Below the pieces are notes generated by a model. It saw only the letters and a list, made by a program, of their open reading frames with translations. It was not told where the DNA came from and made no database searches. This document shows, one piece after another, positions 5,188 to 39,974 of a stretch of 42,196 nucleotides of DNA. Positions within the stretch are counted from its first letter, which is position 1. Each line of letters opens with the position of its first letter. The translations under genes and the position numbers were made by a program. Source of the DNA: Streptosporangiales bacterium (GTDB lineage: Bacteria; Actinomycetota; Actinomycetes; Streptosporangiales; Streptosporangiaceae); contig WHSL01000024.1 in assembly GCA_009380095.1 (NCBI GenBank), forward strand, positions 1 to 42,196, read 5' to 3'.

Positions 5188-5985
5188 TCAGGCCTCGAAG
5201 TCGTACTGCAGGACGTACGCGGAGCCGTCCAGCACCATCTCGTTGACTTCGACCGGAGTGTGCTCGGCGGTGAGCGCGGTGCGGACCACGACGATCACCG
5301 GGGTGCCGGCGCCGAGGCCGAGGTCGGCCGCCTCCTCGGGGGCCGGCATGCGGGCGCAGATCTCCTCGGTGAAGTGCGCCGGCGCGTGCCCGAGCTCGGC
5401 GAGCCGGGCGTAGATGCCGCCGGGCCCGGAGTCGGCCTGGGTGATCGCGGTGCCCTCGGCGAGCACCGCCGGAAGGTACGACGTGGCGAGCTGGACGGGC
5501 CGTTCGTCCACGACGTAGCGGCGCCGCCGGACGCACACCCGTTCGCCCGGGCGCAGGTTGAGCGCGCGGGACACGTAGCCGGGGGGTTGCTCCTCGGCCA
5601 CCTCCACCCGATCCGGCCCGTACACCCGGCCCTTGGTGTCGGCCTCCCAGATGGCCCGGCCCGCCTCCCACATCTCACGGGAGAGCCGCGCCTGGCCGTG
5701 CCGGCGCAGCGGCCGGAACCTGCGCACGTACACCCCGGAGCCGCGGACGGCGATGGCGAGACCCTCGTTGATCAGCACCGAGAGCGCCTGGCGGGCCGTG
5801 GCGCGGGCCACGTTGTAGCGCTCCATCAGCGTGTTCTCGCCGGGAAGTCGTGCGCCGTCGGGGAGTTCGCCGCTGGTCACGGCGGTGCGCAACTCATCCG
5901 CGATCCGCCGGTAGACCGGGCCGGACTCGGCGTCCGCGGCCTGTCGGCCCTGCCGTCCCTTGCCGCCCGGGGTTGCCACGATCAT
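5188..5985 (-). CDS. GntR-family transcriptional regulator with UTRA domain (HutC type)
   Basis: The 265-residue protein has a winged helix-turn-helix at residues about 22-90 (PVYRRIADELRTAV, RLPGENTLMERYNVA, RATARQALSVLINEG), then a UTRA effector domain to the C-terminus, with ERVCVRRRRYVVDERPVQLA and TPVIVVVRTALTAEHTPVEV typical of HutC-type members. Such proteins repress promoters until a small ligand binds the UTRA domain. The ligand cannot be read from the sequence. A candidate operator lies 28 bp upstream of the start, and a second, fully palindromic form lies before the next gene, suggesting autoregulation and control of the small protein. The ATG is preceded by GGGGAGATG. Confidence 0.92.
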   Translation of the reverse strand: MIVATPGGKGRQGRQAADAESGPVYRRIADELRTAVTSGELPDGARLPGENTLMERYNVARATARQALSVLINEGLAIAVRGSGVYVRRFRPLRRHGQARLSREMWEAGRAIWEADTKGRVYGPDRVEVAEEQPPGYVSRALNLRPGERVCVRRRRYVVDERPVQLATSYLPAVLAEGTAITQADSGPGGIYARLAELGHAPAHFTEEICARMPAPEEAADLGLGAGTPVIVVVRTALTAEHTPVEVNEMVLDGSAYVLQYDFEA

Positions 5986-6302
5986 CTCCCCTCGGCCGCC
6001 TCCTGTACCGCCCTCTGTAGAGAAGTATCACGGTATAGGGCTCTACGTCCCTTATGCAGGCGACAGACCGTTGTCGGTCATACGCTACGCGTATGGATGA
6101 TTACTCGGAGCAACCGACCGGCCTACCCCCGTTCCGTTCTCACTATGACGGTACGCAGCCGTTACGCAACGGCGCCAGGGGCGGTACGGGCCGCCTGCGC
6201 CGGGAGCGAGACGGTTGCCGGATGTGGCCGATGTGCCGCCGCCGGCCCCGGGCCCGCGGCGCGGCGGGCTGAATGTCGGTGCCGTCGGGCACAATCAAGC
6301 GT
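5986..6302. other. Divergent intergenic region between the GntR gene and ligC
   Basis: About 317 bp with no gene that can be supported. It holds the candidate GntR operator (6013-6022) and a perfect inverted repeat CATACGC-TAC-GCGTATG (6079-6095), which could be a further operator facing ligC. An open frame of 72 codons from 6054 lacks a ribosome-binding site and recognisable content and is not called. Confidence 0.5.
6013..6022. promoter_or_regulatory. Candidate GntR autoregulatory operator
   Basis: CTCTGTAGAG matches the core of the palindrome at 5074-5089 in nine of ten bases and sits 28 bp upstream of the GntR start. Confidence 0.5.
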
Positions 6303-7382
6303 ATGGAACTGCCGGTCACTCCACCGATCGCCCCGATGCTGGCGAAACCGGTGAAACGCATCCCGGAGGGTCCCTACAGCTTCGAGCCCAAGTGGGACGG
6401 CTTCCGGTCGATCATCTTCCGTGACGGGGACGAGGTGGAGATCGGCAGCCGCAACGAGCGGCCGATGACCCGCTACTTCCCCGAGGTCGTCGCCGCCGTG
6501 CTGGAGCACCTGCCGCCCCGGTGCGTGATCGACGGCGAGATCGTCATCCCGGACGAGTCCGGGAAGCGGCTCGACTTCGAGGCGCTGCTGCAGCGCATCC
6601 ACCCGGCGGAGAGCCGGGTGAACCTGCTGGCCGAGCAGACGCCCGCGCACGTCGTGGCGTTCGACCTGCTCGCGCTGGGCGACACCGACTACATGGAGCG
6701 CCCGTTCGCGGAGCGCAGGGCCGCGCTGGCCGAGGCGCTCAAGGATGTCGGCGGGCCGATCTACCTGACGCCGGCCACCACCGACCACGCCCGGGCGGGG
6801 GAATGGTTCCAGGAGTTCGAGGGCGCCGGGCTCGACGGGCTCATCGCCAAGCCGCTGGACGGGGTGTACGAGCCCGACAAGCGCACCATGTACAAGATCA
6901 AGCACGAGCGCACCGCGGACTGCGTGGTGGCGGGCTACCGGGTGCACAAGAGCGGGCCCGACGCGATCGGCTCGCTGCTGCTCGGCCTCTACAACGACGC
7001 GGGCGACCTGGCCAGCGTGGGCGTGATCGGGGCGTTCCCGATGGCGCGCCGCAAGGAGCTCTTCACCGAGCTGCAGCCGCTGGTCACCGCGTTCGACGAG
7101 CACCCGTGGAACTGGGCGGCCCAGATGGCGGGCGGCCGCACCCCGCGCGAGGCGGAGCACAGCCGGTGGAACGCGGGGAAGGACCTGTCCTTCGTGCCGC
7201 TGCGCCCGGAGCGCGTGGTCGAGGTGCGGTACGACCACATGGAGGGCGTGCGGTTCCGGCACACCGCGCAGTTCGTCCGGTGGCGGCCGGACCGTGAGCC
7301 GCGATCCTGCACGTACGAGCAGCTGGAGGAGCCGGTCAACTTCGACCTCGGCGAGATCTTCGGATACACGCCGGAGGACTGA
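6303..7382 (+). CDS. ligC: ATP-dependent DNA ligase LigC
   Basis: The 359-residue product closely follows the layout of mycobacterial LigC, a ligase of the back-up end-joining machinery. The nucleotidyltransferase motif I is EPKWDGFRS with catalytic Lys30. Further blocks are GSRNERPMTRYFPE, VIDGEIVIP (motif III), DGLIAKP (motif IV), MYKIKH (motif V) and a C-terminal OB-fold region ending with VVEVRYDHMEGVRFRHTAQF. The ATG at 6303 was chosen over an upstream in-frame start because family members begin with this MELPVTPP-like sequence. In mycobacteria the LigC gene neighbours the PolD1 gene; here they are separated by about 4.5 kb of unrelated genes and still point away from each other. Confidence 0.93.
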   Translation: MELPVTPPIAPMLAKPVKRIPEGPYSFEPKWDGFRSIIFRDGDEVEIGSRNERPMTRYFPEVVAAVLEHLPPRCVIDGEIVIPDESGKRLDFEALLQRIHPAESRVNLLAEQTPAHVVAFDLLALGDTDYMERPFAERRAALAEALKDVGGPIYLTPATTDHARAGEWFQEFEGAGLDGLIAKPLDGVYEPDKRTMYKIKHERTADCVVAGYRVHKSGPDAIGSLLLGLYNDAGDLASVGVIGAFPMARRKELFTELQPLVTAFDEHPWNWAAQMAGGRTPREAEHSRWNAGKDLSFVPLRPERVVEVRYDHMEGVRFRHTAQFVRWRPDREPRSCTYEQLEEPVNFDLGEIFGYTPED

Positions 7383-7434
7383 CGCCGCACGATTGACGCC
7401 GGCCGATCGAGGCCCGGGGGGAGTGTCCGCGCGG

Positions 7435-8163
7435 CTAGGGGGTGCGGCGGGTGTAGCGCAGGAACAGCGCGTCGTCGTCCTCGATCAGGTGGCCGATGCG
7501 CATCGGCAGCGTGTCCGGGATGCTCGGCCCGCTGAGCACCCGTGACGCGCCGCCCGCCACCAGCAACGGGCTGACCGTCAGGCACAGCTCGTCGAGCAGG
7601 CCGGCCGCGGCGACCTGGGCCAGCACCCGCGGGCCGCCCTCGCACAGGATGCGCTCGTGGCCGCGGCGGACGAGCTCGGCCACCGCGTCCTTCATGTCCA
7701 CCCGGTCGGTGCCGGCGACCACGAGGTCGGCGTTGTCCGCGGCGGTGGCGAGCCGGTCCGCGGGCGCCGACGCGGTGGTGATCACGATGGTCCGGGCGTC
7801 GTCCGGCGCCTCGGTGAAGAGCGGGCCGGTCAGGTCGAGGTCCAGGCGGCGGGTGAGGACGGCGAGCGGCGGGGTCCGGGTGCGGCCGGCGCGGAGGTGC
7901 TCCCACACCTCGCGGGGGCGCACCGGGCGGTAGCCCTCCGCCCGTACGGTGCTCGCGCCGACCAGGATGACGTCGGAGAGGCCACGCAGCAGCGCGAGGA
8001 GGCGGCGGTCCGCGGCGGAGGAGAGGCCCTGCGTCACCCCCTTCACCGCGGAGGCGCCGTCGGCGCTGGCCACCATGTTGGCCCGCACGTACGGGCCGCC
8101 GGGGTAGGCGTAGGCGGCCACGAGGTCCACATCGTCCGCGAAGTCCGGCAGCAGTCGTCGCAC
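7435..8163 (-). CDS. RibD C-terminal-type pyrimidine reductase family protein
   Basis: The 242-residue protein matches the dihydrofolate-reductase-like fold of the RibD reductase domain. That domain reduces the ribosyl side chain of the riboflavin precursor with NADPH. Typical pieces are PYVRANMVASADGASAVKG near residue 24, VILVGASTVRAEGY near 66, and ILCEGGPRVLAQVAAAGLLDE near 174. No deaminase domain is present, so it is a stand-alone reductase. Many actinobacterial members have no proven substrate, and no riboflavin gene is nearby. It converges with ligC; the 52 bp between them hold nothing obvious. Upstream lies the palindromic repeat element at 8232. Confidence 0.85.
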   Translation of the reverse strand: MRRLLPDFADDVDLVAAYAYPGGPYVRANMVASADGASAVKGVTQGLSSAADRRLLALLRGLSDVILVGASTVRAEGYRPVRPREVWEHLRAGRTRTPPLAVLTRRLDLDLTGPLFTEAPDDARTIVITTASAPADRLATAADNADLVVAGTDRVDMKDAVAELVRRGHERILCEGGPRVLAQVAAAGLLDELCLTVSPLLVAGGASRVLSGPSIPDTLPMRIGHLIEDDDALFLRYTRRTP

Positions 8164-8231: not shown

Positions 8232-8283
8232 CCCAAGATCAACAAATTGGGGAAAATCCTTCCCCCAATTTGTTGATCTTGGG
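8232..8283. repeat. Palindromic repeat element, short copy
   Basis: Two perfectly complementary 21-base arms (8232-8252 and 8263-8283) surround a 10-base loop AAAATCCTTC. The outer sequence CCCAAGATCAACAAATT and the right-hand AAAATCCTTCCCCCAA recur in the longer element at 39887-39974. It begins one base past the stop of the gene on its right (minus strand). Besides being a repeat it could act as a strong transcription terminator. Confidence 0.85.
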
Positions 8284-8284
8284 A

Positions 8285-9466
8285 TCAGAAGGGGGGTTCG
8301 AGGAGGGCGAAGGTGTCGGAGGCGGGGTGGGCGGGGAGGTCGACGCGGCGGACCTTCCAGTCCCGGGCGCCGCGCGTCCAGATCGCCGCGGCCTCGCCGA
8401 CCTGGGGGAACGAGCCCACCATGACGAGCCGGTTGTCCACCGTCCAGGCGGCGGAGGTGGCCTTGAGGTGCACGGCGAGCGGCATCCGCGGGGTGCGGAT
8501 CCAGCGCGGGTCCACGGTGTCGAGCACCCAGAGGTCGAGTCGCTGCACGTGCTCCCCGCCGGGGACCGGCACCTCCTGGGGCGCGGCGAACTCGGCGAAG
8601 ACGTACCTGTCGCCGTAGTCGGGGACGAGCTCGCCGGGCGCCTCCAGGGCGCTCGGCCAGTGCCACTCGATCATGCCGCCGCGCAGCAGCACCCGGCGGC
8701 CGAACATGTCGAACTGCACCCACGCGTTGTCCGCGTACGCGACCGGGCCGCGCAGCTCCGCCCGGGACGTGCCGTCGTGGTCCAGCAGCATCGCGTCGCT
8801 CGCGCCGTCGGACGGGCCGTCCAGCACGAGGCCGCGTTCGGTGTCCCGGACCAGCCGGATGCCGCAGTCCAGGGTGGCGAGCTCGTGCCGGTCGGGTTCG
8901 CCGCCGTGCACGGTGATCCGGTCGAGGCGGCAGCGGTCGCGTGCGCCGTCGCGGATCACCCAGACGGAGCGGCCGTCCCGGTCCGGCACGGCGGAGCGGC
9001 CGGTGCCGATCCGGCGGGCCTCGTGGTCGGCCCCTCCGACCAGGTAGAGCTCGGCGTCGGGGGAGCAGTCGTCGCAGGGCCGGTCGCTGGAGACGATCGC
9101 CTCGTTCGGGCCGAGCGACGTGACGCTGTTGATCCGGTCGCCGTCACTGGGGATCCCGCGTACGGGGTGCCGCGTCCCGACGTCCAGGTCGATGACCACC
9201 GGCGGGTCGGCCGGTATGAGGACGCGCAGGCCAGTCGGGCCGGCGGCGGGAGCCCCCGCGAGGGTCCGTACGGGCCCGGCCACGGGGGTGACGGCGCCGC
9301 TCGGGGTCGCGGTCGGGGTGGCGGGTAACGGGCCCGGCCCGCCGCCGTCGCCGAGCGAGGCGAACACCAGGCCGGCCGCCACCGCCGTGCCGAGCAGCGC
9401 GAGCACCACCTTGCCGGCACGGCCGAGCGGACGGCGCGGAGGCGATGCCAGGACGTCCTCCGGCAT
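8285..9466 (-). CDS. Membrane-anchored beta-propeller-like protein, unknown
   Basis: The 393-residue product is not a recognised enzyme. It has a short cytoplasmic start, one hydrophobic helix (residues about 20-42, AGKVVLALLGTAVAAGLVFA) and a Pro/Thr/Gly-rich linker. A long extracellular part follows, with repeated beta-type blocks such as DGRSVWVIRDG, RRVLLRGGMIEWHW and NRLVMVGSFPQ, as in TolB/WD40-like propellers. Four cysteines (CDDC, CRLD, DCGI) may form disulphides. The start ATG at 9466 is preceded by GAGGAGA; longer upstream reading frames lack this. It follows glgX by 23 bp on the same strand and is probably co-transcribed, but no functional link is evident. Confidence 0.75.
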   Translation of the reverse strand: MPEDVLASPPRRPLGRAGKVVLALLGTAVAAGLVFASLGDGGGPGPLPATPTATPSGAVTPVAGPVRTLAGAPAAGPTGLRVLIPADPPVVIDLDVGTRHPVRGIPSDGDRINSVTSLGPNEAIVSSDRPCDDCSPDAELYLVGGADHEARRIGTGRSAVPDRDGRSVWVIRDGARDRCRLDRITVHGGEPDRHELATLDCGIRLVRDTERGLVLDGPSDGASDAMLLDHDGTSRAELRGPVAYADNAWVQFDMFGRRVLLRGGMIEWHWPSALEAPGELVPDYGDRYVFAEFAAPQEVPVPGGEHVQRLDLWVLDTVDPRWIRTPRMPLAVHLKATSAAWTVDNRLVMVGSFPQVGEAAAIWTRGARDWKVRRVDLPAHPASDTFALLEPPF

Positions 9467-29133: not shown

Positions 29134-29349
29134 GTGGCCGAGACCCTCAAGAAGGGCACCCGCGTGACCGGGGCCGAGCGCACGAAGCTCGCGGTCGAGC
29201 TGAAAAAGCGCTACGACTCGGGGGAAAGCATCCGGTCCCTGGCCGCGTCGACCGGACGCTCGTATGGATTCATTCATCGGATCCTTACCGAGTCGGGAGT
29301 CACCCTGCGCGGGCGCGGTGGCGCGACCCGCGGAAAGTCCAAGCGCTGA
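29134..29349 (+). CDS. gbn: Small HTH nucleoid-associated protein (Gbn-like)
   Basis: The 71-residue basic protein has one helix-turn-helix (residues about 25-55, SIRSLAASTGRSYGFIHRIL) and a C-terminal tail GRGGATRGKSKR. It closely resembles Gbn (SCO1839) of Streptomyces, a nucleoid-associated protein that binds GATC-containing sites and influences development. The recognition is from memory of the family, without an alignment. GGGAGG precedes the GTG start at eight bases. Two GATC sequences lie in the 120 bp upstream (GCGATCTTTT and CTGATCATGG), so self-regulation is possible. The neighbours, an ABC-F gene and an enoyl-CoA hydratase gene, are what I recall for this locus in other actinomycetes. 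Confidence 0.75.
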   Translation: MAETLKKGTRVTGAERTKLAVELKKRYDSGESIRSLAASTGRSYGFIHRILTESGVTLRGRGGATRGKSKR

Positions 29350-30442: not shown

Positions 30443-32332
30443 ATGCAGGGGATGGGACCGATGGGCATGCGCTCGTTCGCCCGGGACAGTTCCGTCACGC
30501 GCGAGAAGCTGCAGCCCGGCATCTGGCGCCGCATCGCCCGCTACGCCCGCCCGTACGGACGCGAGCTCATCGCGTTCCTGGTACTCATGGGCCTGGGCTC
30601 GATGATCGTGGTGGCCAACCCGCTGCTGCTGAAGGCGATCATCGACCGCGGCGTGACCCCCGGCGCGTCGAGCGTGGTGATCGCGCTGGCCGTGGGGGTG
30701 GCCGGGCTGGCGCTGCTGGAGGCCGTACTGGGGCTGGCGCAGCGCTGGTTCTCCGCGCGCATCGGCGAAGGGCTGATCTACGACCTGCGCACCGAGGTCT
30801 TCGACCACGTGCAGCGGATGCCGATCGCCTTCTTCACCCGGGCGCAGACCGGTTCCCTGGTCAGCCGGCTGAACACCGACGTGATCGGCGCGCAGCGGGC
30901 CATCACCACCACCCTGTCCACGGTCGTCTCCAGCGCGATCAGCCTGGTCGTCGTACTGATCACCATGCTCCTGCTGTCCTGGCAGGTCACCCTCATCGCG
31001 CTGCTCCTGCTGCCGCTCTTCCTGCTGCCCGCTCGCTGGGTCGCGCCGCGGCTGCAGCGCGTCACCCGCCGGCAGATGGTGCTGGACGCGGAGCTGAGCT
31101 CGCTGATGACCGAGCGGTTCAACGTCGGCGGCGCCATGCTGGCCAAGCTGTACGGCCGCCCGGACGACGAGGCCGACATGTTCTCCGGCCGGGCCGCCGG
31201 GGTGCGCGACGCGGGGATCACCGCCGCCATGTACGGCCGCGTGCTGTTCACAGCGCTGTCCCTGGTCACCGCGCTCGCCACCGCGCTGGTGTACGGGCTC
31301 GGCGGCGTGCTCGTGGTGGACGGGGCGTTCCAGCTCGGCACGCTGGTGGCGCTGGCCACCCTGCTGACCCGGCTGTACGGGCCGCTCACCGCGCTCTCCA
31401 ACGTGCACGTGGACGTGATGACCGCGCTGGTCAGCTTCGACCGGGTCTTCGAGGTGCTGGACCTCAAGCCGATGGTGGACGAGCGCCCGGACGCCCGCCC
31501 GCTGCCCCGCGGCGACACGCCGGACATCGCGTTCGACCACGTCACCTTCCACTACCCGTCGCCGAGCCAGGTCTCGCTGGCCTCCCTGGAGTCGGTGGCG
31601 CGCGCCGAGGCGGACCGGGAGAACGGGCCCGTGCTGCACGACGTGAGCTTCACGGTGCCGGCCGGCTCGATGGTGGCGCTGGTGGGGCCGTCCGGGGCGG
31701 GCAAGACGACCATCACCGGGCTGGTCTCGCGGCTCTACGACGTGGACGAGGGGGCCGTACGGATCGCCGGCGCGGACGTCCGGGACGTGACGCTCGGCTC
31801 GCTGCACGCCGCGGTCGGGGCTGTCACCCAGGACGCGCACCTGTTCCACGAGACCATCCGGGAGAACCTGCTCTACGCCCGGCCGGACGCCACCGAGGAG
31901 GACCTGGAGCGGGCGCTGCGCGCCGCGCAGATCTGGGGCCTGACCGAGGAACTGCCCGACGGGCTGGACACGGTCGTCGGCGACCGCGGCTACCGGCTGT
32001 CCGGCGGGGAGAAGCAGCGGCTGGCCATCGCCCGGCTGCTGCTCAAGGAGCCCGACGTGGTGGTGCTGGACGAGGCCACCGCGCACCTGGACTCCAACTC
32101 CGAGGCGGCGGTGCAGGCCGCGCTGGACACCGCGCTGCGCGGGCGCACCTCGCTGGTGATCGCGCACCGGCTGTCCACGATCCGGGAGGCGGACGAGATC
32201 CTCGTGCTCGACAAGGGCCGCATCGTGCAGCGCGGCCGGCACGAGGACCTGCTCGCCCAGGGCGGCCTCTACGCACTCCTCTACCACACCCAGTTCGCCG
32301 ACCAGGCGTCTCCCTCCACCGCCGCCTCCTGA
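30443..32332 (+). CDS. ABC exporter half-transporter (permease-ATPase fusion)
   Basis: The 629-residue protein has six transmembrane helices (first near residues 38-58, LIAFLVLMGLGSMIVVANPLL) and a C-terminal ATPase. Motifs are Walker A GPSGAGKTT near 415, Q-loop AVTQDAHLFHETI, signature LSGGEKQRLAIARLL and Walker B VVVLDEATAHLDS, with HRLSTI as the H-loop. It belongs to the MdlB/MsbA-like exporters that dimerise and pump hydrophobic compounds or peptides outward. No partner half is encoded nearby, so a homodimer is likely. The ATG at 30443 follows GAGGAGG; an upstream in-frame start at 30392 lies on that site's far side. The next gene is a drug-type MFS transporter. Confidence 0.9.
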   Translation: MQGMGPMGMRSFARDSSVTREKLQPGIWRRIARYARPYGRELIAFLVLMGLGSMIVVANPLLLKAIIDRGVTPGASSVVIALAVGVAGLALLEAVLGLAQRWFSARIGEGLIYDLRTEVFDHVQRMPIAFFTRAQTGSLVSRLNTDVIGAQRAITTTLSTVVSSAISLVVVLITMLLLSWQVTLIALLLLPLFLLPARWVAPRLQRVTRRQMVLDAELSSLMTERFNVGGAMLAKLYGRPDDEADMFSGRAAGVRDAGITAAMYGRVLFTALSLVTALATALVYGLGGVLVVDGAFQLGTLVALATLLTRLYGPLTALSNVHVDVMTALVSFDRVFEVLDLKPMVDERPDARPLPRGDTPDIAFDHVTFHYPSPSQVSLASLESVARAEADRENGPVLHDVSFTVPAGSMVALVGPSGAGKTTITGLVSRLYDVDEGAVRIAGADVRDVTLGSLHAAVGAVTQDAHLFHETIRENLLYARPDATEEDLERALRAAQIWGLTEELPDGLDTVVGDRGYRLSGGEKQRLAIARLLLKEPDVVVLDEATAHLDSNSEAAVQAALDTALRGRTSLVIAHRLSTIREADEILVLDKGRIVQRGRHEDLLAQGGLYALLYHTQFADQASPSTAAS

Positions 32333-32363
32333 GCGATCTATAACGGACCTTTAGCGTGGTCGC

Positions 32364-32390
32364 CGACCATCGGTCGATCCGGGTTAGGGT
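32364..32390 (+). promoter_or_regulatory. Operator-like repeat and -10 box before the MFS gene
   Basis: CGACC-ATC-GGTCG (32364-32376) is a perfect inverted repeat. TAGGGT (32385-32390) lies eight bases before the GTG start, the spacing of a leaderless transcript. No adjacent regulator gene is present. Confidence 0.35.
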
Positions 32391-32398
32391 TCAGCTCG

Positions 32399-33796
32399 GT
32401 GAAAGCTCCTGACAAAGCGGGCGGCGGCCAGATCGTGGCGTTGCTGGCCTTCAGCGGCATCGTCGTCTCGCTCATGCAGACGCTCGTCGTTCCGCTGCTC
32501 CCACACCTGCCCGGCCTCCTTGGCCGTACGCCCGACGACGTCGCCTGGCTGGCGACCGCCACGCTGCTCGCGGGCGCCGTCACCATGCCCGTCTTCGGCC
32601 GGCTCGGCGACATGTTCGGCAAGCGCCGGATGCTCATCGCCGGCCTCGTCCTGCTCGTCGTGGGCTCGGTCCTCTGTGCGCTCACGGACGAGCTGAACCT
32701 GCTCATCGCCGGCCGCGTGCTGCAGGGCGCGGCCATGGCCGTGGTGCCGCTCGGCATCAGCATCATCCGCGACGAGTTGCCGCCGGAACGCGTGGGCGGC
32801 GGCATCGCGCTGGTCAGCGCGAGCCTCGGCATCGGCGGCGGGGCGGGCCTTCCGCTGGCCGGCCTGGCCGCGGAGCGGCTGGACTGGCACATGGTGTTCT
32901 GGATCGCCGCCGGCGTGGGCGCCATCGGCCTCGTCGCGGTCGCCTGGCGGGTGCCGGAGTCGCCGGTACGGACCCCCGGCCGGGTGGACGTGCCGGGCAT
33001 GGTCATCCTGACCGCACTGCTGCTCTGCCTGCTGCTGCCGGTCTCCAAGGGCGGCGCCTGGGGTTGGGGGAGCCCGCTCACCCTCGGCCTGCTCGCCGGC
33101 TTCCTCGTCCTGACCGTGCTCTTCGCGGTGGTGGAGCCACGGCGCGCCGAGCCGCTGGTGGACCTGCGTACGACGCTGCGCCGTCCGGTCCTGCTGACCA
33201 ACATCGTCTCGGTGCTCACCGGGTTCGCGATGTTCTCCGGCTTCATCGCCACCACCCAGCTGATCCAGGCGCCCGCGGAGACCGGGTTCGGCCTCGGCCA
33301 GGGCATCGTCGCGGCCGGCCTGGCGCTGGCGCCGGGCGCGGTGATGATGAGCGTGGTCTCGCCGCTCTCGGCGCGGATGGCGGCCCGTACCGGGCCGCGG
33401 CTCACCCTGCTGCTCGGGTCGTTCGTCAACGGCGCCGGGTTCGTGCTGCTCATCGCGTACCACGACACGCTGGTGCAGGCCGCTGCCGCGGCGACGGTCT
33501 CCTCGATGGGCGCGGCGATGGCGTACTCCTCCATCCCCGCGCTGATCATGCGGGCGGTTCCGGTGTCCGAGACCGGCGCGGCCAACGGCCTGAACGCGCT
33601 GATGCGTACGGTCGGCACGTCCACGGCCAGCGCGGTCGTCGGGATGCTGCTGGCCAGCTGGACCCGGGACGTGCCCGCGCTCGGCGCGCTGCCGGCGCAC
33701 GGCGCGTTCCTGCTGATCTTCTGGCTGGGTGCCGCCACGTCGGTGGCGTCCGGCCTGCTCACGCTGGCCATCCCGGTCGGCGGGCGACGAGGATAG
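32399..33796 (+). CDS. MFS drug-type efflux transporter
   Basis: The 465-residue protein has twelve to fourteen hydrophobic helices. Motif A is GRLGDMFGKRR (residues 67-77) and motif C-like glycine-rich sequence is SLGIGGGAGLPLAGL near 141, as in the EmrB/QacA drug:H+ antiporters. The substrate is unknown. The GTG start has no Shine-Dalgarno but a TAGGGT box eight bases upstream, so translation could be leaderless. It follows an ABC exporter by 66 bp, and an MDR-type oxidoreductase gene follows 33 bp later. The three may form a loose detoxification group, although transcript boundaries are not evident. Confidence 0.88.
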   Translation: MKAPDKAGGGQIVALLAFSGIVVSLMQTLVVPLLPHLPGLLGRTPDDVAWLATATLLAGAVTMPVFGRLGDMFGKRRMLIAGLVLLVVGSVLCALTDELNLLIAGRVLQGAAMAVVPLGISIIRDELPPERVGGGIALVSASLGIGGGAGLPLAGLAAERLDWHMVFWIAAGVGAIGLVAVAWRVPESPVRTPGRVDVPGMVILTALLLCLLLPVSKGGAWGWGSPLTLGLLAGFLVLTVLFAVVEPRRAEPLVDLRTTLRRPVLLTNIVSVLTGFAMFSGFIATTQLIQAPAETGFGLGQGIVAAGLALAPGAVMMSVVSPLSARMAARTGPRLTLLLGSFVNGAGFVLLIAYHDTLVQAAAAATVSSMGAAMAYSSIPALIMRAVPVSETGAANGLNALMRTVGTSTASAVVGMLLASWTRDVPALGALPAHGAFLLIFWLGAATSVASGLLTLAIPVGGRRG

Positions 33797-33829
33797 AGAT
33801 CATCGGGGCGACCGATTTTCGAGGAGGGC

Positions 33830-34828
33830 ATGATGCCGTACGAGGTGCACCTGGCCGCACGGCCGAAGGGTGAGCCGCGGGAGTCCGACTTCGCGTTCGT
33901 CGAGGTGCCGGTGCCCGAGCCGGGCGAGGGCCAGGCGGTGGTCCGGAACCTCGCGATGTCCGTGGACCCGTACATGCGGGGCCGGATGAACGCGGTGCGG
34001 TCCTACGCCCCGCCGTACGAGCTCGGCCAGGTCATGTACGGCGGCGCGGTGGGGGTGGTGGAGCGGTCCACCGCGGCCGGGCTGCCGGAGGGCGCGACGG
34101 TGCTGCACAACGCGGGCTGGCGGGAGTACGCGCTGCTCGGCGAGGGGGAGGGGCGGGTCGTCGAGGTCTCGGCGGTGCCGGCCACCGCGTACCTCGGCGC
34201 GCTCGGCATGCCGGGCCTGACCGCGTACGTGGGCCTGCTCGACATCGCGGCGATGCGGGAGGGCGACGTGGTGTTCGTGTCCGGCGCCGCGGGCGCGGTG
34301 GGCACGATGGCCGGCCAGCTGGCCCGGCTGAAGGGCGCGTCCCGGGTGATCGGCTCGGCCGGGTCGGCGGAGAAGGTCGCCTGGCTGACCGGGGAGCTCG
34401 GCTTCGACGCGGCGCTGAACTACAAGGACGGGCCGGTGGCCGAGCAACTCGCCGAGGCGGCGCCGGACGGCATCGACGTGTACTTCGACAACGTCGGAGG
34501 CGAGCACCTGCAGGCCGCGATCGGCGCGATGAACGAGGGCGGCCGCGCGGCCGAGTGCGGCATGATCTCGCAGTACAACAACACCGAGCCGAAGCCGGGG
34601 CCGAACAACCTGGGGCTGATCGTGGGACGCCGGCTGACGCTGCGCGGATTCATCGTGAGCGACCACAACGACCGCGCCCCGGACTTCTACCGCGAGGTGG
34701 TCCCGTGGGTGGCGGATGGAAGCATCGTGTTCCGTGAAACGTTCAGCGACGGCATCCACAGCGCGCCGAAAGCGCTGATGGGCCTGTTCCGCGGGGCCAA
34801 CGTGGGCAAGATGGTCGTCCGCCTGTGA
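33830..34828 (+). CDS. NADP-dependent medium-chain oxidoreductase (zinc-free MDR, CurA/YncB-like)
   Basis: The 332-residue enzyme lacks zinc-binding cysteines. Its family blocks are NLAMSVDPYMRGRM near residue 39, LGALGMPGLTAYVGLLDI near 122, the NADP-binding GAAGAVGTMAGQLARLKG near 151 and YFDNVGGEHLQAAI near 222. These match the leukotriene B4 dehydrogenase/CurA branch, which reduces the double bond of alpha,beta-unsaturated ketones and aldehydes. The natural substrate is unknown. Two adjacent ATGs (33830 and 33833) follow GAGGAGGG; either may be used. It probably shares a transcript with the MFS gene. Confidence 0.9.
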   Translation: MMPYEVHLAARPKGEPRESDFAFVEVPVPEPGEGQAVVRNLAMSVDPYMRGRMNAVRSYAPPYELGQVMYGGAVGVVERSTAAGLPEGATVLHNAGWREYALLGEGEGRVVEVSAVPATAYLGALGMPGLTAYVGLLDIAAMREGDVVFVSGAAGAVGTMAGQLARLKGASRVIGSAGSAEKVAWLTGELGFDAALNYKDGPVAEQLAEAAPDGIDVYFDNVGGEHLQAAIGAMNEGGRAAECGMISQYNNTEPKPGPNNLGLIVGRRLTLRGFIVSDHNDRAPDFYREVVPWVADGSIVFRETFSDGIHSAPKALMGLFRGANVGKMVVRL

Positions 34829-34844
34829 CGCGGGGTGATCGTCT

Positions 34845-34878
34845 GCTTACACCCATAATTTACCCATTTGTCATCCAT
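34845..34878. other. AT-rich patch upstream of the unknown two-gene cassette
   Basis: This stretch (from CTTACACCCATAATTTACCC on) is mostly A/T, with the partial direct repeat TTACACCCAT and TTTACCCAT, in a region otherwise above 70% GC. It may hold the promoter (CATAAT) or bind a nucleoid protein such as Lsr2. It also marks a composition break. Confidence 0.5.
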
Positions 34879-34942
34879 GTCGGCTTTCGCCGGATGGTGT
34901 AGTCCGGCGCGCCGGTTAAGCTGTGCCCGCCGAGAGAGTCCA

Positions 34943-35521
34943 ATGGCGGACCGGCAGGGTGAGGGGTGGACGGCATTGAGCACGTTGATGCCTGATCGGC
35001 AACTCGTCGAATTGTTGCTCGCGGGCACTCCCTACCGGGAGATCGTCGCGATCAACGAGCGTTCCACCGGGTTTCGGGTCTCCAAGGCCCACATCGCGAA
35101 CCAGAAACCGCGCCTGATGCAGATGTACGGCGTGGTGTTCCCGCGCGGCCGGCGACGGCACGAGCTGCTGCCGTGGGCCGTACGGCCGGAGCACACCCGG
35201 CATCCGCTGGTGCGGCTGCTGGACCTGGAAGCGCGGCGGCGCGACAACCTGCGCGAGGGGGCGGTGATCCATCCGCTCACCGACGACCTGCTGGCCGAGC
35301 TCCAGGCGTTCCGCGCCCGGCTGCTCGAGGCGGGCGATCTCGTCGTGCACTACGACGCCGGCTCCGCGGGCGGCTTCCAGCTGGTGCCCCGGCGCCCCGG
35401 CATCGACCTCGACCTGATCCGCCGCCCCACCACCGCGGAGCTGGTGCTCGCGCGGCGGGTGGCGGGCGACCCGCCGGTGCGGGGCGTACGGCGGCGGGCG
35501 CGCCCGGGCCGGGTGGGGTGA
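34943..35521 (+). CDS. Unknown protein, possible HTH, phage/mobile-element-like
   Basis: The 192-residue product is not firmly identified. The N-terminal part (LVELLLAGTPYREIVAINER, residues 21-40, then FRVSKAHIANQKPRL) looks like a helix-turn-helix. The centre has RRRHELLPWAVRPEHTRHPL and a helical segment; the C-terminal part has DLVVHYDAGSAGGFQLVPRR and PGIDLDLIRRPT. This order recalls small HTH proteins of actinophages and integrated elements, from memory only. The ATG at 34943 was chosen (GAGAGAG upstream); TTG codons at 34976 and 34982 are alternatives. The stop overlaps the next start as GTGA. An AT-rich patch lies upstream. Confidence 0.6.
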   Translation: MADRQGEGWTALSTLMPDRQLVELLLAGTPYREIVAINERSTGFRVSKAHIANQKPRLMQMYGVVFPRGRRRHELLPWAVRPEHTRHPLVRLLDLEARRRDNLREGAVIHPLTDDLLAELQAFRARLLEAGDLVVHYDAGSAGGFQLVPRRPGIDLDLIRRPTTAELVLARRVAGDPPVRGVRRRARPGRVG

Positions 35522-35745
35522 CCGCGATGGGCGACCAGGGCTGCGGCGACCTGTCCTTCGGCACGGTCAGCGTCGATCTCGCCAACCCCATCACCATGCA
35601 CGTGCCGCTGGTTCACGATCCGGACGACGCCGCGGCCGCGCAGGACTGCGTGGACCGCATGCTGCGGGCGCGCGGACGCCGGCCGGTCTACGAGTTCGCC
35701 ATGTGCGAGGAGGGCTGCACCCTGCTGGTGGCGGCCGACGCCTAG
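35518..35745 (+). CDS. Small unknown protein coupled to the HTH-like gene
   Basis: The 75-residue product is not recognised. It is acidic at the start and contains three cysteines (QGCGDL, AQDCVDRM, CEEGC) and the segments SVDLANPITMHVPLVHDPDD and RRPVYEFAMCEEGCTLLVAA, which suggests an alpha/beta mini-fold. The GTG start overlaps the stop of the preceding gene by four bases, so the two are translated together. It ends in a 4-bp overlap (CTAG) with the convergent SDR gene. An ATG three codons inside (35527) is an alternative start. Confidence 0.6.
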   Translation: MTAMGDQGCGDLSFGTVSVDLANPITMHVPLVHDPDDAAAAQDCVDRMLRARGRRPVYEFAMCEEGCTLLVAADA

Positions 35746-36539
35746 ATCGTGCGGAGGATGCCGCCGTCGATGGGGAGGTTGATCCCGGTCACGTAGGACG
35801 CGGCGGGCGACAGCACGAACGCGGCGGCCTTGCCGAACTCCCACGGCTCGGCGTAGCGGCGCAGCGGGATGCCCTTGGAGCGCTCGATCCGTACGGCGTC
35901 CGGGTCGCCCGCGCGGGTGTCGAGCTCGCGCACCCGGTCGGTGGCGATCCGTCCGGGCATCAGGCCGTTCACCCGGACGCCGAGCGGGCCGAGCTCGTCA
36001 CCGAGCGACTTGACCACCATGCCCAGCCCGGGGCGGAGCCCGTTCGAGATGGCCAGCCCGTTGATCGGCTGCCGTACCGACGAGGACAGCACGAAGGCGA
36101 TCGACCCGCGCTCCTCGCCCGGCACCCGGGCGTGCGGATCGCCCTCGGCCCCCTTGGTGAGATCCTCCGCGACCGTGCGCGCCAGCCGTACGGCCCCCAG
36201 GAACACCGACTCGAACGCCTGCTGCCACTGCTCGTCGGTGTTGCCCATGACCGTGCCGCCGGGCGGGCCGCCCACGCTGATCAGCGCGCCGTCGAGGCGG
36301 CCGAAGCGGGACTCGGCCTCGGCGATAAGCCGGGCCGGCGTGCCGGGGTCGGCGTTGTCGGCGGCGAGGCCTGTGGCTCCGTCGCCCAGGGCCGTGGCGG
36401 CGGAACGGACGGCCTGCTCGTCGCGGGAGGAGAGCACCACCTTCGCGCCGTCGGCGACCAGCGCCTCGGCGGTGGCGTACCCGAGCCCGCGGGAGCCCCC
36501 GGTGACCAGATACACGCGATCGCGTAGTCCAAGATCCAT
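35742..36539 (-). CDS. SDR-family protein with altered catalytic residues
   Basis: The 265-residue protein has the Rossmann fold start TGGSRGLGYATAEAL, the later ISVGGPPGG and the C-terminal VTGINLPIDGG typical of 3-oxoacyl reductase-like SDRs. The catalytic serine region is present (VLSSSVRQPI), but the YxxxK motif is missing: the sequence at that place is ISNGLRPG, so Tyr and Lys are replaced. A related actinobacterial subgroup shares this change, so it is unlikely to be a random mutation. Reductase activity of the usual kind is doubtful. It follows the sulfotransferase gene by 12 bp on the same strand. Confidence 0.87.
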   Translation of the reverse strand: MDLGLRDRVYLVTGGSRGLGYATAEALVADGAKVVLSSRDEQAVRSAATALGDGATGLAADNADPGTPARLIAEAESRFGRLDGALISVGGPPGGTVMGNTDEQWQQAFESVFLGAVRLARTVAEDLTKGAEGDPHARVPGEERGSIAFVLSSSVRQPINGLAISNGLRPGLGMVVKSLGDELGPLGVRVNGLMPGRIATDRVRELDTRAGDPDAVRIERSKGIPLRRYAEPWEFGKAAAFVLSPAASYVTGINLPIDGGILRTI

Positions 36540-38473: not shown

Positions 38474-39886
38474 ATGCGTCATCGGATGCGGGCCCTGGCC
38501 GCCGTCGTCGCCGCGGCCGGTCTGGCGTGCGGTGCGGCCGCCCCGGCGTACGCGGGGCCGGCGCCCGCCGCGGCTCGGGCCCAGGCCGACATCCTGGACC
38601 GGCTGCGCGCGCTGCCGGACGTGATATCGGTCGAGGAGCGCTCCGCGCCGGAGGGGTACCGGTACTTCGTCGTGGCCTTCCGGCAGCGGGTGGACCACCG
38701 CGACCCCTCGGCCGGCACCTTCACCCAGCGCTATACGGTGCTGCACCGCGACGACGACCGGCCGACCGTGCTGCACACCAGCGGCTACAACGTGTCGCTG
38801 TCCGGCTCGCGGTCCGAGCCCACCCGGCTCGTCGACGGCAACCAGATCTCCACCGAGCAGCGCTTCTTCACCCCGTCGCGCCCCGACCCGGCCGACTGGA
38901 CCGACCTGGACATCTGGCAGGCCGCCACCGACCACCACCGGATCCTCGCCGGGCTGAAGACGGTCTACTCCGGCAAGTGGATCTCCACCGGCGCCTCCAA
39001 GGGCGGCATGACCTCGATCTACCACCGCCGCTTCTACCCGCGCGACGTGGACGGGACCGTCGCCTACGTCGCGCCCAACGACGTGATCGACTCCGAGGAC
39101 CGGGCGGACATCCGGTTCTTCGACACGGTCGGCACCGATCGGGCGTGCCGGGCGGACCTCAAGGCCCTGCAGGTCGAGGCGCTGAAGCGGCGCGGCGAGA
39201 TCGTGGACCGGTACGAGGCGTGGGCCGCGGAGAACGGCCGTACGTTCGAGAACACGATCGGCAGCGCGGACCGCGCGTACGAGATGCTCGTGCTGGACAC
39301 GCCGTGGGCGTTCTGGCAGTACCAGACCCAGGCCAAGTGCGCGGACGTGCCGAAGCCCGACGCCTCCACGGATATGTTCTGGGCGTTCCTCGACGAGGTG
39401 TCCGGATTCGACTTCTACACCGACGAGGGCACGGAGCCGTACATCCCGTACTACTACCAGGCGGGCACGCAGCTCGGAGCGCCCAGCGTGCCCACCCGGC
39501 ACCTGCGCGGCCGGCTCCGGTATCGCGACCTCTACCAGCCGCGTTCGTACGTGCCGCGGGACATCCCGATGCGGTTCGACCACCGCGCCATGCCGGACGT
39601 GGACCACTGGGTCCGGACCCGCGGCAGCGAGCTGCTGTTCGTGTACGGCGCGAACGACCCGTGGGGCGCGGAGCCGTTCCGGCTCGGCCGGGGCACCCGT
39701 GACTCGCTCTGGTACACCGTCACCGGCGGCAACCACGGCGCGAACATCGCCCAGCTCCCCGAGGCCCAGCGCGCGAACGCCACCACAGCGCTGCGCCGCT
39801 GGGCCGGCGTCCCCTCGGTCGCCCGCCTCTCCGAGCCCAAGCTCATCCCCGGCTTCGACGAAACCCTGAAGCGCCACCCCCTCTAA
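38474..39886 (+). CDS. Secreted S28-family-like serine aminopeptidase
   Basis: The 470-residue protein begins with a signal peptide (MRHRMRALAAVVAAAGLACG and a likely AYA cleavage site near residue 27). The mature enzyme shows Ser175 in GASKGG, Asp395 in GANDPWG and His421 in GGNHGAN as the catalytic triad, with the family blocks FRQRVDHRDPSAGTFTQRY and YSGKWISTGASKGG. Related Streptomyces enzymes release tripeptides or Pro-containing peptides from protein N-termini. The ATG follows TTGGAGGAC. The stop codon is followed at once by a palindromic repeat element. The gene is probably for extracellular peptide nutrition. Confidence 0.9.
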   Translation: MRHRMRALAAVVAAAGLACGAAAPAYAGPAPAAARAQADILDRLRALPDVISVEERSAPEGYRYFVVAFRQRVDHRDPSAGTFTQRYTVLHRDDDRPTVLHTSGYNVSLSGSRSEPTRLVDGNQISTEQRFFTPSRPDPADWTDLDIWQAATDHHRILAGLKTVYSGKWISTGASKGGMTSIYHRRFYPRDVDGTVAYVAPNDVIDSEDRADIRFFDTVGTDRACRADLKALQVEALKRRGEIVDRYEAWAAENGRTFENTIGSADRAYEMLVLDTPWAFWQYQTQAKCADVPKPDASTDMFWAFLDEVSGFDFYTDEGTEPYIPYYYQAGTQLGAPSVPTRHLRGRLRYRDLYQPRSYVPRDIPMRFDHRAMPDVDHWVRTRGSELLFVYGANDPWGAEPFRLGRGTRDSLWYTVTGGNHGANIAQLPEAQRANATTALRRWAGVPSVARLSEPKLIPGFDETLKRHPL

Positions 39887-39974
39887 CCCAAGATCAACAA
39901 ATTCAGGGAAGGATTTTGCAGGAGAACCCGCAGGTCGGCCCTGCAAAATCCTTCCCCCAACTTGTCGATCTTGG
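39887..39974. repeat. Palindromic repeat element, long copy
   Basis: The element begins at the base after the TAA stop of the peptidase gene. Left arm: CCCAAGATCAACAAATT, then GGGAAGGATTTTGCAGG (39906-39922). Right arm: CCTGCAAAATCCTTCCC (39940-39956), then CAACTTGTCGATCTTGG. The inner 17 bp pair perfectly around a 17-base loop AGAACCCGCAGGTCGGC; the outer part has a few mismatches. It is related to the shorter copy at 8232-8283. As RNA it would be a strong hairpin and probably ends transcription. Confidence 0.85.

Follow-up and report, generated by a model that had tools for sequence, protein, structure and literature searches.

Phage repressors of the stoperator type

The closest described relatives of the locus reported here are immunity repressors of actinobacteriophages. 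In the cluster A repressors, represented by L5 gp71 and by the repressor of TipsytheTRex (7r6r, 7tz1), an N-terminal helix-turn-helix (HTH), a bridge and a Stoperator-type domain follow one another in that order. According to the TipsytheTRex study (PMC9283540), R45 and W50 of the HTH and R108 and D104 of the Stoperator domain are required for immunity, which W50 mutants nearly lose and R108 mutants lose fully. The same study states that integration of the repressor together with its promoter lowered plating of the phage by more than four logs, and that mutations in gp74, the gene adjoining the repressor, permit escape from it.

A second group is formed by the R4-type repressors of the Arquatrovirinae (R4 gp29, Andris gp29 and phiHau3 gp31; phrog_3929), and the database record of R4 itself remarks on similarity to L5 gp71. 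With this protein, certain Streptomyces phages maintain their dormant state and shut out phages related to them.

A two-gene cassette at a variable junction

We analysed a stretch of 42,196 nucleotides from a Streptosporangiales genome (hereafter the window), in which a homologue of these repressors, P0001, is followed by a small gene, P0002. The features to which we refer are the following.

30443 to 32332, plus strand: ABC exporter, left border of the insertion (Pfam ABC_membrane, ABC_tran; synteny)
32333 to 35741, plus strand: 3.4-kb insertion holding the MFS, oxidoreductase, P0001 and P0002 genes (synteny with relatives)
32399 to 33796, plus strand: MFS transporter (Pfam MFS_1, E = 2.3e-56)
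33830 to 34828, plus strand: oxidoreductase (Pfam ADH_N_2 / ADH_zinc_N)
34834 to 34890, no strand: AT-rich leader patch, up to 61% AT over 36 bp
34943 to 35521, plus strand: P0001, solitary homologue of R4/L5-type immunity repressors (HTH and Stoperator-type domain), alternative start TTG at 34976
35518 to 35521, plus strand: GTGA stop/start overlap of the P0001 TGA and the P0002 GTG, a translational coupling signature
35518 to 35745, plus strand: P0002, 75-aa orphan, predicted beta-alpha-beta-beta (codon score 0.32; AF2 from the single sequence)
35742 to 35745, no strand: CTAG common to the stop codons of P0002 (plus) and the SDR gene (minus)
35742 to 36539, minus strand: SDR dehydrogenase, right border of the insertion (Pfam; adjoins the ABC exporter in relatives)

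The sequence-only reading had described an AT-rich patch, an HTH-like protein, a 75-residue protein coupled to it by a GTGA overlap and a convergent overlap with the SDR gene, and each element of this layout was recovered. The HTH-like protein is P0001, with 192 aa counted from the ATG, the GTGA overlap and the 75-residue gene lie exactly as described, and the overlap with the SDR gene measures 4 bp. The patch, whose richest 36-mers start at 34846 and 34847, sits between the oxidoreductase stop codon (34828) and the HTH gene. It is genuine, yet of the sort expected of a leader, and is one of three patches in the window with at least 58% AT over 36 bp (the others lie at 8234–8290 and 39880–39928). 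A promoter scan found no sigma-70-like promoter in the leader, and the same scan returned one terminator-like match versus 0.5 expected.

Both P0001 and P0002 score as genuine genes. Using a codon log-odds model trained on long ORFs from the same window, the mean score was 0.24 for P0001 (from 34976) and 0.32 for P0002, compared to a maximum of 0.095 among 83 shadow ORFs of 60–140 aa; GC3 was 0.92 and 0.95, respectively. From the sequence, TTG 34976 is probably the better start of P0001, because the alignment with most phage homologues begins near this codon and positions 34943–34975 have a codon score of −0.11. The hexamer GAGGGG lies 5' of it.

To place the cassette, we compared 16 stretches around the SDR gene in relatives, where the SDR and ABC-exporter genes are convergent neighbours. 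The two matches lie ~20 bp apart in 2 of the 16 stretches (L150, L161), about 0.1 kb apart in L153 and 0.24 kb apart in L154, and are separated by other genes in six (L151, L152, L155, L156, L160, L163), while the pair is not displayed by six. Of the four genomes with a close pair, one belongs to the same family, one to the same order and two to the same class. Because the gap holds four genes here and is empty, nearly empty or occupied by different genes elsewhere, the P0001–P0002 cassette makes up the right-hand end of an insertion, and the junction that received it is variable. We found no direct repeats flanking the insertion, the only match being one of 9 bp away from its ends, and we therefore claim no mobile-element boundary.

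Two further observations concern the surroundings. Gene content at the ABC-exporter/SDR junction (32333–35741 in the window) varies across genomes of the class, which marks it as an insertion hotspot. Separately, a 71-aa HTH_58 protein is encoded at 29134–29349 (Pfam E = 1.3e-32); over 58 residues it shares 91% identity with its counterpart in a genome of another family, a degree of conservation that is unusual.

P0001 is a diverged homologue of phage immunity repressors

Against PHROGs, P0001 matched phrog_3929, 'transcriptional repressor', over residues 70–165 (E = 9.4e-13). A tblastn search of 50,697 phage records returned matches in 172, all from Streptomyces phages, of which 11 covered at least 80% of P0001; among the phage matches listed, 60 of 60 were annotated as repressors, the best being from Andris (E = 1e-9). 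The tblastn matches H1–H9 extended from query residue 5–15 to residue 162 at 30–32% identity (E = 3e-7 to 5e-6). Direct comparison to the repressors of five R4-like phages gave 29–32% identity with alignment across both domains, and the core residues PW, VVHYD, GF..PR and D..I..P are kept. When P0001 and the five phage repressors were combined into a profile, the TipsytheTRex repressor (7r6r/7tz1) was matched over its Stoperator-type part (E = 5.9e-11); P0001 alone as query retrieved no related PDB sequence. Pfam gave no match to P0001 or P0002 up to E = 1, and NCBIfam gave a sub-cut-off transposase match for P0001 (E = 0.025) and none for P0002. Sequence homology to the R4/L5-type family thus extends over the HTH and the Stoperator-type domain and is strong over the second.

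The predicted structure is consistent with this assignment. An AF2 model built from P0001 and 12 relatives (pLDDT 79, pTM 0.52) has three N-terminal helices, a bridge, two longer helices and two strands. Foldseek returned 7r6r_A as the first match (E = 1.4e-3, prob 1.00; rmsd 8.0, TM 0.38–0.43), and in a VIA comparison to 170 chains the top row was again 7r6r (Z 9.7, 137 aligned residues, rmsd 4.8), followed by a row that covered the HTH only (Z 5.8, 49 residues). Among the VIA rows listed, only 7r6r spans most of the model, and beyond residue 69 almost only 7r6r is aligned. The model thus has the two-domain fold of 7r6r, with a modest match. We count the fold match only alongside the sequence evidence, because models made mostly of helices can attain such scores by chance; the VIA notes give values of up to Z 14 against unproven relatives.

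In a tree of 102 sequences, P0001 was placed inside the R4-type group next to a sequence from a metagenomic virus (L053), with a branch length of 3.16 substitutions per site. Support values on the way to P0001 were weak (62, 54, 63, 34, 36 and 14, with none displayed for the node joining P0001 and L053), and we therefore conclude from the tree only that P0001 is closer to R4-type repressors than to the chromosomal cousins described below. The dN/dS comparison between P0001 and L053 (NG86) was close to saturation and uninformative.

Taken together, these results identify P0001 as a diverged homologue of the repressors that confer immunity in R4-like Streptomyces phages and in TipsytheTRex. The first reading had taken the cassette for the residue of a mobile element or phage, and this is partly supported: phrog_3929, the phage tblastn matches, the 7r6r profile and fold matches and the tree all speak for a phage origin of the HTH gene. 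Its suggestion that the HTH protein is a regulator is supported by the homology. P0001 does not show broad vertical conservation free of phage links, the pattern named by the first reading as a refutation; a distant family of cousins does look vertical.

Like the R4-type repressors, P0001 is colinear over both domains and contains the VVHYD..GF..PR..D..I..P block; unlike them, it has no phage around it, no detected R4-type operator, a longer loop before the fifth long helix, a longer basic C-terminus and a coupled orphan gene. It shares the order of HTH, bridge and Stoperator-type domain with the cluster A repressors but has about 20% identity to that of TipsytheTRex and stands alone in a chromosome. 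The essential contact residues W50 and R108 (TipsytheTRex numbering) are not kept. In a MAFFT alignment of 71 distinct relatives, the W50 column has W in 70 and F in 1, where P0001 has I, and the R108 column has R in 68, K in 2 and V in 1, where P0001 has E; we assigned columns to TipsytheTRex numbers by inference, using the 7r6r alignment as printed together with the numbering in the paper. D104 is not conserved in R4-type proteins either. The change of contact residues seems to have occurred on the P0001 lineage, because the nearest viral relative retains R4-type sites. By analogy with the TipsytheTRex mutants, which nearly or fully lose immunity, P0001 may not bind DNA at all.

No R4-like phage and no detected R4-type operator at the locus

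At a threshold of E = 1e-6, the only ORF in the window that resembles the five R4-like phages is P0001 itself, and no other R4-like gene was found there. The R4-type portal gave no match in the genome (413 contigs, about 97% complete); as a control, the same query gave matches of 69–80% identity in three genomes bearing R4-like prophages. P0001 is therefore solitary and not carried by an R4-like prophage, the type of phage tested. It was not detected in any of the other 59 among 60 genomes of relatives searched, and when 396 genomes of the phylum were searched with a profile, this genome alone was returned at E = 1e-5.

A search of five R4-like phages for enriched k-mers recovered asymmetric repeated sites whose strand mostly tracks the left and right genome arms. 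Andris has CACTTACACA and R4 has CACTTGCACA, phiScoe44 and Speedwell share CACTGTCACA, and phiHau3 carries a form of TCTATCACAC. In both R4 and Andris, a single site of this kind precedes the repressor gene by about 50 bp. These sites agree with the repressor–stoperator mechanism reported for R4 in PMC10276819 and with a remark in PMC6550527 that Streptomyces phages have systems like those of cluster A. In the nearest viral relative of P0001, CACTTGCAC occurs three times in 8.5 kb (L054), compared to 0.05 expected. Operator families vary among the R4-like phages (L037, L038, L039, L040, L041), with CACTTRCACA, CACTGTCACA and TCTATCACAC types, and these types may mark immunity groups.

Weight matrices detected no R4-type operator upstream of P0001. 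With a matrix from 52 R4/Andris sites, the best score in the upstream region was 2.4 of 33 (rank 29 in the window), and in a shuffle test the score was 1.2 (P = 0.27–0.29, or 0.11–0.13 for the best of three matrices). The test detects sites before the repressors of R4, Andris and phiScoe44 and at loci L042, L043, L045, L047, L049 and L051, weakly at L048 and L053, and finds none before those of phiHau3 and Speedwell or at L044, L046 and L050. The absence before P0001 is thus weak evidence, since the test also fails for two of the phages and for the prophage L050. P0001 may have a differing site in place of the R4-type operator.

We also considered specific candidates. The CTTACAC in the AT-rich patch, which resembles CACTTACACA of Andris, was dropped as an R4-type operator on account of weight-matrix scores far below those of real sites. 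The genome contains no exact CACTTACACA, and sites with one mismatch number 24 versus 83 for the reversed control. A 12-mer of the leader, TTACACCCATAA, was rejected as a repeated operator of P0001's own, with 17 matches at up to two mismatches versus 14 for the reversed control.

Lone R4-type repressors and distant chromosomal cousins

A pattern-limited scan of contigs identified ten other loci with R4-type repressors. Three are inside R4-like prophages (L045, L047, L050), and seven have no R4-like structural genes nearby (up to 8 kb on each side), including L046 and L048 on short contigs of 7.3 kb and 3.9 kb. The seven come from six Streptomyces genomes (L042, L043, L044, L046, L049, L051) and one Bifidobacteriaceae MAG (L048). 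Whole-genome searches found no R4 portal for L043, L044, L048, L049 or L051 and only partial matches of 38–45% identity for L042 and L046, which may belong to other phages.

The seven loci resemble P0001 in having a repressor gene without R4-like structural genes around it, but their proteins are much closer to the phage versions: the six from Streptomyces are 62–80% identical to the best of five, and L048 about 45%. Four also keep an R4-type operator upstream (L042, L043, L049, L051), for which 0 of 200 shuffles scored as well (taking the best of three matrices, without correction); L049 and L051 have it at the position that it occupies in R4. No such operator was detected at L044 and L046, by a test that misses some true phages, and at L048 one was found only with the phiHau3 matrix (P = 0.01). 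A divergent phrog_4061 gene is retained at L043 and L051. Such lone repressors are thus recurrent, and several look poised to act; with ten loci, obtained in a pattern-limited scan, we claim no rate. In a literature search that covered titles and the opening parts of abstracts of the papers listed, mostly outside the subscription journals, we found no report of lone R4-type repressors in chromosomes.

At L042, a serine-integrase-like sequence in two overlapping frames (5584–7754) adjoins the repressor between ordinary chromosomal genes and is apparently a shrunken, broken integrative remnant.

More distant homologues occur elsewhere in the order, phrog_3929 matching 86 other genomes among 297 searched. 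Cousin loci (L009, L013, L017, L021, L026, L031, L033 and related) have the HTH and Stoperator-type layout near tRNA-Pro(ggg). Among 29 loci fetched, 19 have a 207-aa neighbour in common, and of the nine host loci scanned, seven have the tRNA gene close by; five others (L007, L008, L010, L012, L016) share different neighbours. The one cousin member scanned in Pfam gave only sub-cut-off HTH and DUF433 matches. The cousin family looks like a fixed, vertically inherited chromosomal gene. Those of its members that lie by tRNA-Pro in genomes of this order (L017 and others) are chromosomal and two-part like P0001 but, unlike it, share neighbours across genera and are distant from it in the tree, where P0001 belongs to neither cousin group.

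Discussion

The locus combines homology to phage repressors with coding that is intact and host-like; P0001 is the only R4-like gene found in the window, and it lies in a 3.4-kb insertion at a variable junction. The kind of repressor is already known; its setting and the residue changes are unusual. The reading we favour, tentatively and with a little less than even confidence, is that P0001 is a domesticated phage repressor that most likely provides prophage-free immunity with altered specificity. A repressor of the R4/L5 kind would have been retained in the chromosome without its prophage; as a monomer, it would still contact DNA with both the HTH and the Stoperator-type domain and block transcription. 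Its target would be a site other than the R4 operator, given the changed contact residues. Most likely, the host would thereby be protected from incoming phages that use this altered site; the alternative is that P0001 controls host genes.

That alternative, in which the fold was recruited for chromosomal genes, perhaps the neighbouring MFS and oxidoreductase genes, and phages are no longer concerned, is possible but somewhat unlikely. The replaced contact residues, the lack of a detected R4 operator upstream, the host-like GC3 and a cousin family of the same layout that looks like a fixed chromosomal gene (tRNA-Pro(ggg), 207-aa neighbour) all fit such a regulator. However, no repeated candidate site was found for it, TTACACCCATAA being roughly as common as its reversed control.

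It is less probable still, and in our view unlikely, that P0001 is a decaying prophage remnant, its frame open but its function lost and its sequence drifting. Changes at essential residues, the very long branch and the absence of P0001 from the relatives searched would be expected under decay, but the frame is intact, codon bias is strong in both P0001 and the coupled P0002, and the core residues PW, VVHYD, GF..PR and D..I..P have been kept.

P0002 itself has no detected relatives in phages, plasmids or IMG/VR, and none beyond itself in 294 genomes of the order and 394 of the class (overlapping sets, with its own genome counted in each). Its single-sequence AF2 model is beta-alpha-beta-beta (pLDDT 64), and a search with this low-confidence model gave a best match of E = 0.09. 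The overlapping stop and start codons are the sole indication that P0001 and P0002 may act together. P0002 would be produced by coupled translation and its simplest role, at the level of guesswork, would be that of a small modulator of P0001; escape through gp74 of TipsytheTRex (PMC9283540) offers only an analogy for such a partner. The toxin–antitoxin-like pair proposed from the sequence, with P0001 regulating and P0002 toxic or the reverse, fits a small overlapping two-gene arrangement with a DNA-binding protein but is highly improbable, as Pfam, NCBIfam and PADLOC gave no toxin or antitoxin family match for either protein (a new family would escape such a search) and, in the phage regions read, the homologue is an annotated repressor with no annotated toxin or antitoxin partner gene.

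Returning to the domesticated immunity repressor, a broader proposition is that actinobacterial chromosomes keep single stoperator-type repressors as a prophage-free layer of immunity, with P0001–P0002 a re-specified, long-domesticated case in which contact residues were replaced and a small protein was added. We offer it as a speculative generalization and hold it to be rather doubtful. If lone stoperator-type repressors do protect from R4-like phages, a single gene would provide the immunity, and in the case of P0001 this kind of gene goes unflagged by the PADLOC models. If P0001 instead regulates host genes, a phage roadblock repressor would have turned into a host regulator. And if the re-specified immunity reading is true, P0001 would be a naturally occurring monomeric repressor of two domains whose specificity has shifted, and it could help to show what determines the DNA code of such a protein.
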